From positions 1 to 37,241 of the IMG/VR virus record IMGVR_UViG_3300009170_000012: a stretch of DNA of 37,241 nucleotides; one strand, written 5' to 3'. Positions 10,051 to 21,133 of this stretch are shown piece by piece. Within the stretch, counting starts at the first letter, position 1. The number at the start of each line of letters is the position of its first letter. The notes under the pieces are model-generated. The model did not search any database and had not been told where the DNA came from. It worked only from the letters and a program-made list of their open reading frames with translations. This stretch comes from a virus. A program made the translations under genes and the position numbers.

Positions 10051-10458
10051 TTATCCCCTGGCTATTTTTAGCCCGCCATCTAGTATAATAAATCTACAAT
10101 TTAAAGGACGAGTATCAAAATGTAACTTTGATAATAATCTATCCTTTGCCTTCTCATTTAAATGATGTTCTGTCTCTATAACATAAGTTCTACCTGGTAA
10201 TAGTTCCACAGGATTTATAGGTTCAAATGTCATATTTGGGGGTAATGTTAGTAGTTCCATAAGTTCCGGGCTAAAAAATTGTTCTAAAATTGACTTTGCT
10301 TCTTCTAATGTTTCTGGGGTAAAGACTTCGCTTAATATATCATTTAACTGTTTTATTGCAGCTTCTGCTGCTGCTTCTACCTCTTCGGGTGCCATGTCTT
10401 TTATAGTTTCTAGAGCTTTTACAAAATTATCCCAACTAAATACTTCTTCTGTTTTCAT
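10051..10458 (-). CDS. Hypothetical protein, 135 aa
   Basis: First half helical and acidic (APEEVEAAAEAAIKQLNDIL), second half beta-rich with PGRTYVIETEHHLNEKAKDR. Overlaps the lysozyme gene end by 4 bases. No recognised domain. Confidence 0.6.
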   Translation of the reverse strand: MKTEEVFSWDNFVKALETIKDMAPEEVEAAAEAAIKQLNDILSEVFTPETLEEAKSILEQFFSPELMELLTLPPNMTFEPINPVELLPGRTYVIETEHHLNEKAKDRLLSKLHFDTRPLNCRFIILDGGLKIARG

Positions 10459-10901
10459 ATATTTTCCAATCTTCTCATTAATCTTTCCGCCCGATTAGGG
10501 ACTTGGCGGTACCATTTACTATTACGACCTTCTTTCGCAGCCTGGGCCCAATCTCCCAGATCTATAGCTTTATTCATATTTACAAATTTATTTAAACCTG
10601 CATATCCCAGATTGAATATCATATTAACTAATACTTCTTGTACTATATCAGGAAAGTGATTCCAATGTTCTCCATATAATCTTTGACAGTTATTTATGGC
10701 TGTTTTTACATCTTCGGCAAAACAGTCGTGCACCCGTTGATAGTCTACTGAGGCACCTACTGGGTAGGCCCACTCTGGGTCTGATACCTGGGAAACTAAA
10801 TGTCCCACACCGAATGTCTTATACCCTAAATGATCTAGGTATATATGGTATATGACTCCCTCATCTTTTTTAAGATCTTCATGCAGTCTTGCTATATCCA
10901 T
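10455..10901 (-). CDS. Endolysin, T4-type lysozyme (glycoside hydrolase 24)
   Basis: 148 aa, similar in size to T4 gpe. The catalytic triad is visible in the standard spacing: Glu14 (LKKDEGVIY), Asp23 (IYLDHLGY) and Thr29 (YKTFGVGH). The C-terminal lobe has VNMIFNLGYAGLNKF and the usual WYRQVPNRAERLMRRL. It cuts the MurNAc-GlcNAc bond of peptidoglycan at lysis. No signal peptide or SAR helix, so it should need a holin for release; none is obvious next to it. The spanin pair follows immediately upstream. T5 itself uses a peptidase endolysin, so this gene differs from that model. Confidence 0.92.
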   Translation of the reverse strand: MDIARLHEDLKKDEGVIYHIYLDHLGYKTFGVGHLVSQVSDPEWAYPVGASVDYQRVHDCFAEDVKTAINNCQRLYGEHWNHFPDIVQEVLVNMIFNLGYAGLNKFVNMNKAIDLGDWAQAAKEGRNSKWYRQVPNRAERLMRRLENI

Positions 10902-11161
10902 TAATCATTCTGCACCTTTAATGCAGCCTTATACTGTTCCACCTTAATATGACAGGCTTCTACATCTTTTGCATATGCACGTGCAATGTCTTGGTTAGAG
11001 GATTTATCAGTTAAGCTATCTGTAGAAAATACTAAATCTGCTATAATAGGTAGATTCGGGCATTTTTCCATTATAATAGTAGGAACTTCCACAATTCTAT
11101 CTTTATAAACAATTTGAGGTGCACAGCCTGCTAACAATAGTGCTAGAAATATTGCTCTCAT
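10901..11161 (-). CDS. Outer-membrane spanin lipoprotein (o-spanin, Rz1-like)
   Basis: Starting at the ATG at 11161 gives MRAIFLALLLAGCAPQIVYK, a lipoprotein signal with lipobox LLAGC. The rest is a short periplasmic helix (QDIARAYAKDVEACHIKVEQYKAAL). The longer in-frame start at 11185 would bury the signal, so I prefer 11161, which overlaps the i-spanin stop as ATGA. With the i-spanin it should bridge and fuse the two membranes at lysis in a Gram-negative host. Confidence 0.82.
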   Translation of the reverse strand: MRAIFLALLLAGCAPQIVYKDRIVEVPTIIMEKCPNLPIIADLVFSTDSLTDKSSNQDIARAYAKDVEACHIKVEQYKAALKVQND

Positions 11162-11559
11162 TTTTGAATCCTCTCGAACATCCATTTGAATGTCTCTTCA
11201 CAATTCGTAGGAATAGGGGTAACATCTATATCGCTATTTGCTAAATCAGCCTCTAGATCAGCTATTTCCTTATTTGCTTCTGTTATTTTATTTTTGTACT
11301 CTTCATTAAGCTTTTGTGTAGCAGCTAAATCGGTTTTCAACTTCTTTAAAGTTTCATCCATAGTTGCACGTTCTGAAATACAGAGTGTAATTGCTGCTTG
11401 AGACTTTCCTATATCCTCATGAAGATCCTGATTATTGTTATATAATACTATAGTAAATATCAGCCACCCAGAAAATAGTAGAGCTACTACTATATAAAGC
11501 CAGTATTTTCTCAATACTGGGACTGCTTTAGTTCCTAAACCTAGTAACGCTCCCCACAT
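11158..11559 (-). CDS. Inner-membrane spanin (i-spanin, Rz-like)
   Basis: 133 aa. One transmembrane helix at residues 19-40 (YWLYIVVALLFSGWLIFTIV) followed by a long periplasmic coiled coil (DETLKKLKTDLAATQKLNEE...ANKEIADLEADLA). This is the Rz layout. Strong AAGGAG 7 bases before the ATG. Neighbours are the o-spanin and the lysozyme. The start follows the tmRNA coding piece directly. Confidence 0.82.
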   Translation of the reverse strand: MWGALLGLGTKAVPVLRKYWLYIVVALLFSGWLIFTIVLYNNNQDLHEDIGKSQAAITLCISERATMDETLKKLKTDLAATQKLNEEYKNKITEANKEIADLEADLANSDIDVTPIPTNCEETFKWMFERIQK

Positions 11560-11620
11560 ATTTTCTCCTTAATTCTGTGCCACGCTTTGGTAAGAAGGCC
11601 GTGGCTCACCTCCGAGTTGG

Positions 11621-11680
11621 TTATGCTGCTAGAGCAAAATCCATGGCGAAATCCTCATCATCGTCAAATGATGGGAAAGC
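11621..11680 (-). other. tmRNA proteolysis-tag reading frame
   Basis: From a possible GCT resume codon (11680-11678) the frame reads AFPSFDDDEDFAMDFALAA then TAA. The acidic middle and the ALAA end fit an ssrA degradation tag read by ClpXP. The exact resume codon is uncertain, but the end is firm. Confidence 0.75.
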
Positions 11681-11824
11681 GCTCTTCTCTGTAACTGTTG
11701 TATTGTCAGTTAAATTTAGTTTGCTTCTTTGGAATCGCTTTCGTAGTTCGATTCGCTCCACGGCTTTAGCATTGCCGATTCTCAGGTTAATCTACTTATC
11801 CCATGTCGAAGCCTGGTCAGCCCC

Positions 11825-11917
11825 ATCAGAAGTGCATTGTGTTTGTTTGATATACAACTGGTACCAATCATATACCCGTTCGTCCTCAGTCCATCTCTGA
11901 GGTTTTCAATGCACTTG
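11825..11917 (-). other. Internal transcribed spacer joining the two tmRNA pieces
   Basis: 93 bases between CCA (ends 11918) and GGGGCTG (starts 11824). Its ends pair as CAAGTGCATTG-side AAGTGCATTG with CAATGCACTT, a 10-bp stem extending the acceptor stem, plus a CCTCAG/CTGAGG hairpin. Removal by processing would give the two-piece RNA. Confidence 0.75.
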
Positions 11918-12142
11918 TGGTGGAGCTGGGCGGAATCGAACCGCCTTCCACAAGACTTTTAATTTTCCGTCAACGAATATGTTTATCTAGTAGTTGGGTG
12001 GTGATAGGCTTTTACTCCATTATCCCACTTAGCCAGCTTAAAGGACTACTAGATTTTATTTTACTTATAAAAACATACTCTGTCGCTATTTTTGCTACGC
12101 TGGTAATAGCCAAACCTTAAAGAGTATGCTTTTCAAACTTAT

Positions 12143-12488: not shown

Positions 12489-12517
12489 TTGACAAATTCC
12501 TCAATTTGAAGTATAAT
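12489..12517 (+). promoter_or_regulatory. Promoter of the leaderless Myb-like gene
   Basis: TTGACA (12489-12494), 17 bases, TATAAT (12512-12517), full consensus. The ATG at 12524 falls 6 bases after the -10, where transcription should begin. Confidence 0.8.
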
Positions 12518-12714: not shown

Positions 12715-12743
12715 TTGACAGAATACGGTTTTTTTGATATAAT
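12715..12743 (+). promoter_or_regulatory. Promoter of the plus-strand tRNA operon
   Basis: TTGACA (12715-12720), 17 bases, TATAAT (12738-12743). The first tRNA starts 44 bases after the -10. Confidence 0.82.
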
Positions 12744-13808: not shown

Positions 13809-14024
13809 ATGAAAACAGTAACAGGCGTATTAATGTTTATAACAGGTGAAAATGTATTTTGGTTCGAAGATGAACAAAATAACTATACCAAAGTAACATT
13901 TGTTAACCCAGAAACCTCTGTTCCTCTAAATACTAAGATTCATCTTAGTGTAGATGAACAAGCGGGTAGGTATATAGTTCCTGATTTACCTGCACCCTAT
14001 AAAAAGGTTGATCTCTATGCGTAA
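13809..14024 (+). CDS. Hypothetical protein, 71 aa
   Basis: Beta-rich MKTVTGVLMFITGENVFWFE... ending PAPYKKVDLYA. AAGGA before the ATG. Stop overlaps the metalloprotease start by 8 bases, so the two are probably made together. Not recognised. Confidence 0.6.
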   Translation: MKTVTGVLMFITGENVFWFEDEQNNYTKVTFVNPETSVPLNTKIHLSVDEQAGRYIVPDLPAPYKKVDLYA

Positions 14025-15714
14025 AGTACATCTAGCAATATTTAGGCAGGTTCCTTTTGGAACTTCAGATCAAGATAAACTTGAAGCCTTAAAAAAAGAA
14101 ATAGAAAGGGCTGCTGAAGTACAGAAGTATTGGAGAAATTACTGCCGAAATGTTTGGGATGTACAAGTTCGTGCATATGTAATGGAAGGTGAGGAGAATA
14201 CCCATCCTCCATATTATGCTAAAGGTGATATGCGTAATTATATGCAGACCCATGATATGGGTGGGTTTGTGCCTAATTACTTCATGGTACATGGAGGTAC
14301 CTCACAAACTCTTTGTGGCCAAGCCACCTTAGGTGGTAATTATGCAGTATGTTATTTAAACTACTCCTGCAATGTAAAAACTGCTATACATGAATTTGGT
14401 CATAATCTTGGGTTGCACCATGCAGGCACTTGGGATAATGGTGAATGGACTGAATATGGGGATCATACTAATGTTATGTCCTCAGTTACAGTTGCTAGAG
14501 GTTTATCTAGTCCTCATTTGGTATCTCTGAACGTAGAAAGTGATAGAGAGATTTTAGTAGTTGAGACTAGCCAACAAGTATTTGCTGTGCCTATCGAGAT
14601 GCCAGGAATCGGTATGCACCCGAAGGAGTGGCAGCATATTATTGTTAGAAAAGTAGGTTATAATGATGTTCACTTAACGCTAAGAAAGAGCCAAGGTACT
14701 TTATATCCCGCGGGCATACCGACTACTGATCCTAGTATATTATATATCCAAGAGAGAACACAAGATAATCATTCTGCAAGATATATACCTGACATGAAGG
14801 TAGGAATGATTCAAAAGTTATTTAACAATGTTGTTGTCGAATATAAAGACTATAAAAATGAAACGGCAAAGATCAACATTCTATTTGATTTAAATGATGT
14901 TATTGTAGATAGTCCTATTTTAATTGGGTTTCCTGATAAGATACCTGGAGTATTTCTTGAATATGGGCATAGTGGTTTCTGGCATAATAATTATTACAAT
15001 GGCCAGGGATTATTCATTAAAGCCATAAAAGATATGTATGGGATTGATAGGCTGATAGGTTATTGGTATACTTTCAATGAGAGAGAAAGATCTAGAAGAT
15101 TTTATATGTTTAATACTCAAATGAGTGACGCTATAGAAGAATTTGATCTTATTACTATGGTAGAGGGGGATTGGAATGATCCTACTAAAGCCAAAGAACT
15201 TCTAGTTGGTCGAGGGCAGTTATATTTCTATGACCAAGAAAGAGGTGTATTTAATTTCAACTTGCCTGGAGCCCAGGGTCGTGGTGGTTTTGAAATCACG
15301 AGGACGGCGCCGGCTCTCGCCAATCCATTAGATGGGGCTTGGGAGAGCACGGGCAGAACTGGTGAAGGTATAACCTGTCAGTTTATTGATAAAATGGTTA
15401 TGCCAGATGGTTCTATAGTAGACTTTTTTACATCTATTATGTACTCACATGGGCCCAGACCATATAATTTTACTCATGGAGTTATACAGACTCAAAGATG
15501 GTACGTTATAAATGGCATCAAGCAAGAAGATGGCAACTATGTAGTCACTTTCTTAGAGGCAAAAACAGGTGAATGGTTAGATCCTGATGACGTTGGCTTA
15601 GTTCAAGTAGGTGATGGAATTTTAAAAGTGGGTGATACATTATCCCTGGCATTTAATATTAATGCACAGATGGTTTCTGGGTCTTATTCAATAAGTTTAC
15701 ATAAGATCATCTAA
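14017..15714 (+). CDS. Zinc metalloprotease (metzincin type) with two C-terminal G-x-W modules
   Basis: 565 aa from the ATG at 14017. Residues 121-135 read KTAIHEFGHNLGLHHAG: HExxHxxGxxH, with His125, His129 and His135 as zinc ligands and Glu126 as the catalytic base. A Met-turn candidate NVMSS follows near 150. This is closest to gametolysin-like (M11) metzincins. The C-terminus has two copies of a beta module: GFWHNNYYNGQGLFI...GYWYTFNERERSRRF (about 325-420) and GAWESTGRTGEGITCQFI (about 445-565). A related module forms the exported protein at 18228-18683. No signal peptide is visible, so it may act inside the host, at lysis, or on particles. Placement inside a tRNA operon is unusual. Confidence 0.8.
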   Translation: MRKVHLAIFRQVPFGTSDQDKLEALKKEIERAAEVQKYWRNYCRNVWDVQVRAYVMEGEENTHPPYYAKGDMRNYMQTHDMGGFVPNYFMVHGGTSQTLCGQATLGGNYAVCYLNYSCNVKTAIHEFGHNLGLHHAGTWDNGEWTEYGDHTNVMSSVTVARGLSSPHLVSLNVESDREILVVETSQQVFAVPIEMPGIGMHPKEWQHIIVRKVGYNDVHLTLRKSQGTLYPAGIPTTDPSILYIQERTQDNHSARYIPDMKVGMIQKLFNNVVVEYKDYKNETAKINILFDLNDVIVDSPILIGFPDKIPGVFLEYGHSGFWHNNYYNGQGLFIKAIKDMYGIDRLIGYWYTFNERERSRRFYMFNTQMSDAIEEFDLITMVEGDWNDPTKAKELLVGRGQLYFYDQERGVFNFNLPGAQGRGGFEITRTAPALANPLDGAWESTGRTGEGITCQFIDKMVMPDGSIVDFFTSIMYSHGPRPYNFTHGVIQTQRWYVINGIKQEDGNYVVTFLEAKTGEWLDPDDVGLVQVGDGILKVGDTLSLAFNINAQMVSGSYSISLHKII

Positions 15715-16969: not shown

Positions 16970-17143
16970 ATGACACGTTTAAAAGCTATTGGCTTATTTT
17001 TACTAGCACCATTTATTGGTTTAGCATATGTATTTGTATTGCCGTGGTATTGTGTTTATCAAGCTATTAGCTGTGGTATAGAGCGTTCAGCTATAGAAGC
17101 AGCAGATATAATGAAGGTAACAGAAGAAGCATTATGCAAGTAA
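16970..17143 (+). CDS. Small membrane protein upstream of bS21
   Basis: 57 aa from the ATG at 16970 (CAGGAGAAATTT before it): MTRLKAIGLFLLAPFIGLAY then FVLPWYCVYQAIS and a helical tail ending EEALCK. Two hydrophobic stretches. Its stop overlaps the bS21 start (ATGCAAGTAA), so the two are translationally coupled. Function unknown. Confidence 0.65.
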   Translation: MTRLKAIGLFLLAPFIGLAYVFVLPWYCVYQAISCGIERSAIEAADIMKVTEEALCK

Positions 17144-17340
17144 TTGTAAGGAATGATAACGTAAATAAAGCACTGTCTATTCTTAGAAAGAAATGTGATG
17201 GGGTAATTCAGGAAGTTCGTGAAAGACAAACTTATGAAAAGCCCACTACTAAAAGGAATAGAAAGAAGAGATTAGCTATTTCTAGAGAGCGTAAACGTCA
17301 GGCTCTAGATAGTGTTCCATCAGTACATAGAAAGTATTAA
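17134..17340 (+). CDS. rpsU: Ribosomal protein bS21 homologue
   Basis: 68 aa, against about 70 for bacterial bS21. MQVIVRNDNVNKALSILRKK matches the N-terminal strand-helix, followed by VRERQTYEKPTTKRNRKKRL, in which YEKPTTKR is almost identical to the E. coli bS21 core (YEKPTTER), then a basic helical tail. bS21 sits on the 30S platform beside the anti-Shine-Dalgarno end of 16S rRNA and helps initiation. Phage copies are known in some large phages and pelagiphages. Here it lies among tRNAs and near a tmRNA, so it may bias host ribosomes toward phage mRNA; that role is inference. Confidence 0.9.
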   Translation: MQVIVRNDNVNKALSILRKKCDGVIQEVRERQTYEKPTTKRNRKKRLAISRERKRQALDSVPSVHRKY

Positions 17341-18045: not shown

Positions 18046-18231
18046 GTGGTAGAACACGTTTGTGGTTTGATGGGTTTTAATGGTATGCGGGGTGATAAAT
18101 GCCCTGCGTGCGAAACGAGGTTCAAGAAGAAAATGAAGTGTGAGCATTACTGGGTAGAGGATTTCTCTATCGGCCCCATCACTGAAAGATGGTTTAGATG
18201 TATATTTTGTGGAGTTACGAAAAAGGTATGA
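18046..18231 (+). CDS. Small zinc-finger-like protein, 61 aa
   Basis: GTG start preceded by AGGAGA at 7 bases. Contains CPACETRF, then MKCEHYW and WFRCIFCGVTKKV, a likely four-Cys zinc ribbon. Overlaps the next gene as ATGA. Not assigned to a family. Confidence 0.65.
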   Translation: MVEHVCGLMGFNGMRGDKCPACETRFKKKMKCEHYWVEDFSIGPITERWFRCIFCGVTKKV

Positions 18232-18683
18232 AAGCTACTTTACTAGCGGGGCTACTAGCTATTAGCCCAGGCGCCTTCGCACTAGATTCCTGCATGGCAG
18301 GCAACTGGTACGATCCTACCCGAGAGGATGGAATAGGTTTAGATATATCTTTCACCAATAAAAATACAATAGGTTTAGCTCATTTTTATACTTGGGCTGG
18401 TACAGAACGTATGACTTTTGTATTTCTAGGAAATAATGTTTGGCAGGATGTACTTTATTTTGATACATACCAAACAATACGTTCAGAGAATGGAACTGTA
18501 GAAACACTAGAAAATGGTCGTGGTTCTATAGTTGCACTAGATAATGATACCATTAAGCTTGAGTACATTTTTGTACATGATCACACAAATATTGGCAGTA
18601 TGCCACACTGGTGTTTGAAAGGTTGGTGTTCACTAGATGTTGTTTATACACGCCTTACTCAACCTGTGGAGTGTGATGAATGA
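18228..18683 (+). CDS. Exported protein with the G-x-W beta module of the protease
   Basis: From the ATG at 18228: MKATLLAGLLAISPGAFA is a clean signal peptide with an AFA cleavage site. The mature part starts LDSCMAGNWYDPTREDGIG, matching the GAWESTGRTGEGI and GFWHNNYYNGQGL modules of the 14017 metalloprotease. Four Cys (SCMAG, HWCLKGWC and a final C) could make disulphides in the periplasm. The module is a common beta domain of secreted bacterial proteins; function unknown. May be a partner or inhibitor of the protease, or a lysis-stage factor (speculative). Confidence 0.75.
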   Translation: MKATLLAGLLAISPGAFALDSCMAGNWYDPTREDGIGLDISFTNKNTIGLAHFYTWAGTERMTFVFLGNNVWQDVLYFDTYQTIRSENGTVETLENGRGSIVALDNDTIKLEYIFVHDHTNIGSMPHWCLKGWCSLDVVYTRLTQPVECDE

Positions 18684-19830: not shown

Positions 19831-20027
19831 TACATCTCCCTCACTTTAATAACTTGCTCTACATCTATACAAGCTACAGCTTGGTAGATTGTAAGTGGAA
19901 AACACTCCTTTTCAATCTCATCATCTTCTATAGACCTTTTGATTTCCGCGTGTATCTCTTCTTTCGAATCAAAAGCCCACCTATTTAAATACATATCGTC
20001 ACCATCTGCGTTTTTTACAATATACAT
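19830..20027 (-). CDS. Hypothetical protein, 65 aa (MYIV paralogue 2)
   Basis: MYIVKNADGDDMYLNRWAFD ... TIYQAVACIDVEQVIKV. One-base overlaps with both neighbours place it in the purA-like operon. Confidence 0.65.
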   Translation of the reverse strand: MYIVKNADGDDMYLNRWAFDSKEEIHAEIKRSIEDDEIEKECFPLTIYQAVACIDVEQVIKVREM

Positions 20028-21133
20028 TATTCATCTCCTCTAAAATTTATCACACCATCCCTATACTTTGTAAAAGCTAGTAAGCCACTATCCACACCTA
20101 CCGCATTTAATATACCACTAAGATTCATCGTTTCATTAGCCCAGGTTACCGCAACTTTAAACTTAGCATTTGGATAAAACTGCTTATCTTTTGCTACGTC
20201 TCTAGCCATTCTGTCAAAGTCATGTGTTGCATATCTTAGACCACCCTGGTATTGATTGTGTACATTTGTTTCATCTACATAGCCAGGATTTTGAATTTCA
20301 TTATCAAGAGGTCCAACACCATGCCTAGTAAGATATGAACGTGTTACATAGTATACAGTAGTATCGCAATCGAATCCCTCTAAAAGCTTAGCTACATTCT
20401 CGAGACCTGTGCTAGACCTGGTAACATGAGGAAAATCTTCACTGTACTGATCTAAGCGCAATCCTTGTGCACCCTCAAAAACCAAGTGATCGAACCACTC
20501 CATGGCTTCTACATCTCGTTTAACAATTACTGTTTTCAGAAATAAGGCACAATCATCAAGAAATCTCTGTTCTGCACCATCTAGGAATTCTTTAGTGATG
20601 TCGGGGCGTATGGCATTTAATCCACGCATTAAGGGATAAAAATAGTCTCTGCGTATAATAGATAGCATATTCTGCACAAACAAAGGATTCTTTAAATCCT
20701 TCACTCTTATACTAAACCCTATTTCGTTACGTTTAATAGTTTCTGCAAACCCTATACCACAACTTCCGTTTTTAGTGTGTTTTTCCCTGGCACGATTAAT
20801 CATAACATCATATGGGGTAGTAACAATGCATTCTGGGTCTACATATATGTTCAGACGTCCAAATTCCGTACGTTCCAGCATATACAATACGGGATTTACT
20901 ACAAAGAACCGCGATAGTATAGTCGCGGCTCCTTGCAGAGATCCAGAACCGATGTGATGAAAAACATGACGTTGTGTTGGTGTGTTAACAGTATGCCCAG
21001 CCTGAGCACCACCATTAAAACGGACTACCGCGATTTCATCAGGCACTTCGCCTCTACTAACTAGATAGTCAGTAGTGAGTCCTTTACCCTCGTCCCCGTA
21101 GTTCAACCCAATCACAACGTCAATTTTCTTCAT
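20027..21133 (-). CDS. purA: Adenylosuccinate synthetase-like enzyme (PurA/PurZ family)
   Basis: 368 aa, shorter than bacterial PurA (about 430) and nearer archaeal PurA and phage PurZ. GLNYGDEGKG (residues 9-18) is the GTP-binding start. Asp14 matches the catalytic Asp13 of E. coli PurA, which dGMP-using PurZ enzymes replace by Ser. His47 (GAQAGHTV) is the second catalytic residue. FEGAQGLRLDQ and VTRSSTGLEN near 220-245, then VTRSYLTRHGVGPL, give the IMP and aspartate loops. With Asp kept, IMP plus aspartate to adenylosuccinate is the likelier reaction. Phage PurA-family genes are linked to 2-aminoadenine DNA, but no DatZ, MazZ or DpoZ gene is visible here. Confidence 0.85.
   Translation of the reverse strand: MKKIDVVIGLNYGDEGKGLTTDYLVSRGEVPDEIAVVRFNGGAQAGHTVNTPTQRHVFHHIGSGSLQGAATILSRFFVVNPVLYMLERTEFGRLNIYVDPECIVTTPYDVMINRAREKHTKNGSCGIGFAETIKRNEIGFSIRVKDLKNPLFVQNMLSIIRRDYFYPLMRGLNAIRPDITKEFLDGAEQRFLDDCALFLKTVIVKRDVEAMEWFDHLVFEGAQGLRLDQYSEDFPHVTRSSTGLENVAKLLEGFDCDTTVYYVTRSYLTRHGVGPLDNEIQNPGYVDETNVHNQYQGGLRYATHDFDRMARDVAKDKQFYPNAKFKVAVTWANETMNLSGILNAVGVDSGLLAFTKYRDGVINFRGDE

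Follow-up and report, generated by a model that had tools for sequence, protein, structure and literature searches.

A circularly permuted tmRNA gene upstream of the lysis genes in a T5-like phage

Phage two-piece tmRNAs described so far

Phage-encoded two-piece tmRNAs are already known. One was reported in 2022 in the Methylophilales phage Melnitz, and ARAGORN suggested that 53 of 402 tmRNA-bearing phages, from 18,146 genomes, had a two-piece tmRNA (PMC9004378). The Rfam family RF04321 was introduced by the tmRNA database, which includes 79 phage sequences (PMC11915505). The established biology of two-piece tmRNAs is that of Keiler 2000 and Gaudin 2002, cited in PMC3968760 and PMC9004378. Published tags are 8-35 residues long and the resume codon is mostly Ala, sometimes Gly (PMC3968760).

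The RF04321 model recovered the genes of Melnitz (113 bits) and of the Pelagibacter phage HTVC008M (91 bits) and found nothing in two enteric T5-like phages (KKP_3711 and Eos) or in two other controls. A pattern for the permuted layout matched at least 120 IMG/VR stretches, and most of the listed matches were confirmed by ARAGORN. An earlier note on the DNA analysed here had suggested that a permuted tmRNA in a phage might be new. The 2022 report (PMC9004378), the frequency of such genes in virus contigs and the re-detection of those in Melnitz and HTVC008M rule out a first phage permuted tmRNA. In the literature searched, with most subscription journals outside the search, no description of a permuted tmRNA in a T5-like phage was found. 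What is new is mainly the long acidic tag and the place of the gene just before the lysis genes. The T4-like marine myophages already published with two-piece tmRNAs are here joined by T5-like phages.

A permuted gene on the minus strand

The window, a virus record of 37,241 bases without end repeats, is probably 37 kb of a larger genome. To the left of the tmRNA it encodes a DnaB-type helicase, D5, a split NAD-dependent DNA ligase, thymidylate synthase, a lysozyme and an Rz-like spanin; the split ligase, D5 and the helicase make up a T5-type replication module. The ligase matched more than 1200 annotated phages, the best being T5-like Demerecviridae at no more than 47% identity.

When the whole window was searched with RF04321 (tmRNA_permuted), the covariance-model check proposed in the earlier note, a match of 90.2 bits was obtained (curated cut-off 47, E 2.8e-16), well above chance. 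ARAGORN, an independent program, called a tmRNA*, i.e. a permuted tmRNA, with the tag DNTTVTEKSAFPSFDDDEDFAMDFALAA. The betaproteobacterial model RF01850 (beta_tmRNA) gave 67.7 bits (E 5.8e-20, 1.4 kb searched), which misses its curated cut-off of 84 bits. The fold of the 501-nt region was better than those of all of 100 shuffles (z -3.7). No Rfam match to a glutamine riboswitch, as in Melnitz, was seen near the gene.

The gene is complete and consists of an acceptor piece (about 11990-11918, approximate at the mature 5′ end), a spacer of 93 nt (11917-11825) and a coding piece (11824 to about 11579), all on the minus strand. The acceptor piece was placed by the RF04321 alignment and coordinates, and the coding piece by the RF04321 and RF01850 alignments. 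The acceptor 3′ half with its CCA (11928-11918) precedes the 5′ half at 11824, with the spacer between them, which is the permuted order.

In the acceptor piece the RF04321 alignment gives the P2 strands AUUC (from 11978) and UCUUGUG (11955-11949). These are followed by a T arm, GGCGG-UUCGAUU-CCGCC, with a canonical T-loop (11945-11929), the acceptor 3′ half CAGCUCC (11928-11922), A73 and an encoded CCA that ends at 11918. The coding piece opens with the acceptor 5′ half GGGGCUG (11824-11818), which pairs with CAGCUCC at seven of seven positions, G3-U70 included. The 7-bp acceptor, G3-U70, the T-loop UUCGAUU and the CCA are those of an alanine tRNA-like domain. Further along the coding piece are UUCGAC (at 11810), the P2 strands 3′ of it, a small hairpin CGGC/GCCG (11777-11761), the tag frame predicted by ARAGORN (11707-11621, with the stop at 11621) and a 3′ hairpin, GCCACG-GCCUUCUUACCAAAG-CGUGGC (11605-11579), the loop of which carries, in the RF01850 alignment, the motif of the Rfam beta_tmRNA model.

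The spacer, removal of which is predicted to leave two pieces, is closed by a 10-bp stem, AAGUGCAUUG/CAAUGCACUU (11916-11907 with 11839-11830); the terminal stems of spacers in the comparison set are mostly 8-13 bp. The acceptor statistics of that set are informative at pairs 5-7 only, because the search pattern fixed GGGG and CUCC.

The permuted two-piece gene described in the earlier note is therefore borne out by RF04321, ARAGORN and covariation, which agree, and it lies on the minus strand. The elements named there (the 7-bp acceptor with G3-U70, CAGCTCC-A-CCA, the T arm, TTCGAC, an ALAA-ending tag and the 10-bp spacer stem) were all found in the sequence. The interval proposed, 11581-12115, covers the gene but also takes in, at its upstream end, some 120 nt of further structured sequence, which the tmRNA does not need and which is absent upstream of the tmRNAs of two T5-like contigs, L137 and L216.

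Two long inverted repeats lie between a small ORF and the tmRNA on the minus strand, one at 12130-12069 (10 bp, with a T-rich tail) and one at 12053-11986 (9 bp, TCTAGTAGT/ACTACTAGA, around a structured loop). Neither was found at the corresponding place in L137 or L216. They may be a terminator, an additional promoter region or the leader of the acceptor piece. A 17-bp direct repeat, AATAGTACAAAAGTAAT, occurs at 12186-12170 and 12159-12143 (minus strand), directly past the small ORF and upstream of the tmRNA.

Conservation and neighbourhood among T5-like phages

A permuted tmRNA (about 89-390; RF04321, 85 bits) is also present in the T5-like contig L137, the LigA of which is 66% identical to that of the window. 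Seven helices (acceptor, T stem, P2a, P2b, P2c, CGGC hairpin and 3′ hairpin) are kept between the two, with 12 pairs changed on both sides, none changed on one side and every pair standard in both, in a comparison of two sequences only for which the helix strands were picked by eye and the L137 T arm was shifted by one base. Unrelated tRNA-like and hairpin sequences brought together by chance, a reading that has the length of the window and nothing else in its favour, would have to produce this covariation as well as the E value of 2.8e-16 and the ARAGORN call; this reading was ruled out on these three grounds, as was an artefact, and its probability is negligible.

In L137 (89-180) the spacer is 26 nt and the T-loop is without the UUC motif, the acceptor and the other helices being intact, and ARAGORN misses this gene. 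Because the closest T5-like homologue has so odd a T-loop, the permuted tmRNA genes of the window/L137 lineage may be undergoing change or decay there.

In the tmRNA region a sister contig, L122, shows 100% identity over 800 bp, with its aligned flanks at 98-99%. Permuted tmRNAs were found in at least four other T5-like contigs, in three of which they adjoin the small ORF and/or lysis genes; that of L216 scored best with the alphaproteobacterial model RF01849. Two pattern scans for members of the window/L137 branch returned known contigs and chance matches only, and no nucleotide match to a near relative of the window tmRNA was found among annotated phages. By sequence, the window tmRNA is no closer to that of L137 than to those of other phages. 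Similarity therefore does not prove that the gene descended vertically among T5-like phages, a claim that rests on the neighbourhood.

The order in the window is a promoter-like site, a 50-aa ORF, the tmRNA, an Rz-like gene, a possible Rz1-like gene and an endolysin gene, all on the minus strand. The promoter-like site, TTGACT-17-TATAAT (12430-12402, 11/12), points toward the small ORF, the tmRNA and the lysis genes; it is a consensus match only, and matches in the region number at chance level. The ORF (12334-12182) has a hydrophobic N-terminus, CWKLGKRQGIHGTL. The start codon of the Rz-like spanin gene (11158-11559; PHROG phrog_13/739) is 20 nt past the tmRNA 3′ hairpin and has its own Shine-Dalgarno sequence, AAGGAG. 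Its frame is overlapped by a possible Rz1-like spanin lipoprotein gene (10901-11185; a weak PF23793 match below cut-off), and a lysozyme-type endolysin gene (10455-10901; PF00959, 31.7 bits, cut-off 22.3) completes the group. On the plus strand two perfect sigma-70 consensus promoters, TTGACA-17-TATAAT (12489-12517 and 12715-12743), face the rightward tRNA cluster.

L216 keeps the order of the window, with a promoter-like site and a small ORF that resemble those of the window and then the tmRNA; a homologous lysozyme follows after 1.2 kb, and bS21 is nearby on the opposite strand. In L137 the contig end truncates the small ORF, the last part of which precedes the tmRNA; beyond the tmRNA are a spanin-like pair and a peptidase. 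L217 has a similar small ORF upstream of its tmRNA with other ORFs between, and in the stretch of L218 that was read neither the small ORF nor lysis genes were seen. The similarity of the small ORFs among T5-like contigs is modest (24-40% identity). A neighbourhood of small membrane ORF, tmRNA and lysis genes, often with bS21, recurs in T5-like contigs, not universally.

This bears on whether the gene could be a passenger, a copy of host ssrA picked up, for example, via integration at ssrA and functionless in the phage. tmRNA genes are common integration sites, and integration at a tmRNA gene was raised for Melnitz (PMC9004378). The gene of the window, however, is complete and has compensatory changes, several diverged T5-like contigs share a similar neighbourhood, and the window holds a T5-like replication set and no hint of a temperate phage, so a passenger is very improbable.

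The earlier note had also placed bS21 and tRNAs beside the tmRNA, and both were confirmed: the phage ribosomal protein bS21 is encoded at 17134-17340 (plus strand; PF01165, 45.5 bits, cut-off 27), and ARAGORN found 23 tRNA genes in the window. Among T5-like records bS21 is present in five of the six with a tmRNA and in six of the 21 without (Fisher one-sided P 0.027), an association that is weak because the records are fragments and related, the window and G026 being near-identical. SmpB was found neither in the window nor in nine related records, all of which are possibly fragments. As to the host lineage, among lineage-specific models the beta one, RF01850, fits the window tmRNA best, but the nearest matches of bS21, for which the query was a few peptide patterns, are alphaproteobacterial; tmRNA sequence similarity alone singles out no lineage.

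The window also encodes a PurZ-like adenylosuccinate synthetase (20027-21133, minus strand; PHROG 1211), the best phage matches of which are 42% identical and in Vibrio phages. The PurZ family is used in making 2-aminoadenine (Z) DNA. Amid the tRNA genes is a 568-aa protein (14008-15714, plus strand) with a metzincin-type zinc motif, HEFGHNLGLHH, a weak PF13582 match below cut-off and no match among annotated phages. By eye, its end shares phrases (TREDGIGLDISF / GRTGEGITCQF) with a 161-aa protein (18198-18683, plus strand) that has a signal-peptide-like start.

The tag, the proposed function and known systems

The predicted tag, DNTTVTEKSAFPSFDDDEDFAMDFALAA-stop, is 28 aa long with 8 acidic residues and 1 basic, and has a GAC (Asp) resume codon after UAACU. 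It ends in GCUCUAGCAGCAUAA, i.e. ...FALAA-stop, an LAA-type degron. The usual resume codon (Ala/Gly), the usual tag start and the AND motif were not found in it. The L137 tag, of 26 aa, also starts with GAC, after UAAUC, and reaches an ALAA-stop. ARAGORN made calls for 119 comparison loci; the tag is of 10-14 aa in 112 of these, and the longest, a dubious one, has 24 aa. The tag of the window is longer than all of them. As published tags span 8-35 residues, it is unusual yet within the known range. Four other phage permuted tmRNAs (L040, L043, L048 and L071) have a 22-aa tag, AKASKFEYMTVDFSLEAADMVA, the end of which is not LAA.

The long acidic tag could be a misreading, with resumption elsewhere and a short true tag. 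A frame that stays open for 28 codons would not be improbable by chance, most other phage tags have 10-14 aa, and outside ALAA the window and L137 tags are not significantly alike (as good a likeness came from 373 of 5000 shuffles). A second candidate resume codon, UUA (Leu) at 11713, is in frame 6 nt upstream and would give a 30-aa tag. The sequence upstream of the tag, however, aligns with that of L126 (GCAAACUAAAAUAAAC|GCA against GCAAACUAAAUUUAAC|UGAC in the window), which places the resume point next to GAC, and in L137, too, the ALAA-stop is reached only through a long frame. A misread tag is therefore unlikely.

The phage RNA might also be a decoy: a charged, SmpB-binding RNA that tags poorly and inhibits host trans-translation. 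There is a precedent in mycobacteriophage DS6A, where an RNA with only the tRNA-like domain inhibits tmRNA (PMC4131195, PMC11915505), and the tag start and resume codon of the window are non-canonical. A decoy would not need a full coding piece, however, and the window and L137 both keep one, with an open frame (28 aa in the window) to the ALAA-stop and a covarying 3′ hairpin; this makes a decoy decidedly improbable.

It is highly likely, instead, that this T5-like phage gene encodes a circularly permuted tmRNA, which would work in trans-translation with host factors. The gene layout, the tRNA-like domain with its alanine pair, the CCA, the spacer stem, the tag frame and the covarying helices are read directly from the DNA, and the function is proposed by analogy with the known biology of two-piece tmRNAs. 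A single precursor would be transcribed leftward, host RNase P and 3′-end enzymes would cut both ends of the spacer, which would be lost, and pairing in the acceptor and P2 helices would hold the two pieces together. The RNA would be charged by host alanyl-tRNA synthetase via the G3-U70 signal; host SmpB and EF-Tu would bring it into stalled ribosomes, which would be released with the ALAA-ending tag added to the product. During infection, ribosomes stalled on cut or degraded mRNAs would be recycled and the tagged products marked for host ClpXP-type proteases.

The tmRNA probably acts alongside the 23 phage tRNAs and bS21 to sustain translation. That the phage runs its own ribosome rescue, as the earlier note had it, is plausible, but the process is probably host-dependent: because no SmpB was found in the records, host SmpB is probably used and must accept the phage tmRNA.

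In E. coli the AND start of the tag is the adaptor-binding part. A speculative and rather improbable extension is that in one T5-like branch (the window and L137) the tag was rebuilt as a long, acidic, phage-specific one that lost the AND start and kept the ClpX-type ALAA, so that phage tagging would differ from that by the host tmRNA, for example by bypassing or redirecting the host adaptor, timed with transcription of the lysis genes. The long Asp-resume tag offers a natural variant with which to probe the requirements of tmRNA tags and resume signals, and the question of whether phage tmRNA is for ribosome recycling or for selective protein degradation.

Among known systems, the enteric T5-like phages (Demerecviridae) have the replication set of split NAD-dependent ligase, D5 and DnaB-type helicase in common with the window, their ligase being at most 47% identical; KKP_3711 and Eos have no permuted tmRNA and no standard-tmRNA match above cut-off. 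The alphaproteobacterial two-piece tmRNA (RF01849) has the same permutation, but for the window it scores lower than RF01850, and it has a different 3′ hairpin. The betaproteobacterial permuted tmRNA (RF01850) is the best lineage-specific model and shares the 3′ hairpin loop GCCUUnUUACCAAAG, but the spacer and tag of the window are longer and its 67.7 bits fall below the cut-off of 84.

As in Melnitz and HTVC008M, the gene is permuted, with a spacer between CCA and GGGG and a G3-U70 pair, the tag ends in ALAA and the phage also carries bS21. The published glutamine riboswitch of Melnitz has no Rfam match near the gene described here. Those two phages are T4-like myophages (Kyanoviridae), whereas the phage described here is T5-like and its tmRNA, unlike theirs, has a beta-type 3′ hairpin. 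Their tags are of 14 aa (ANDNYVPVDYALAA, Melnitz) and 10 aa (ANFNEYALAA, HTVC008M), whereas that of the window has 28 aa, with Asp first.
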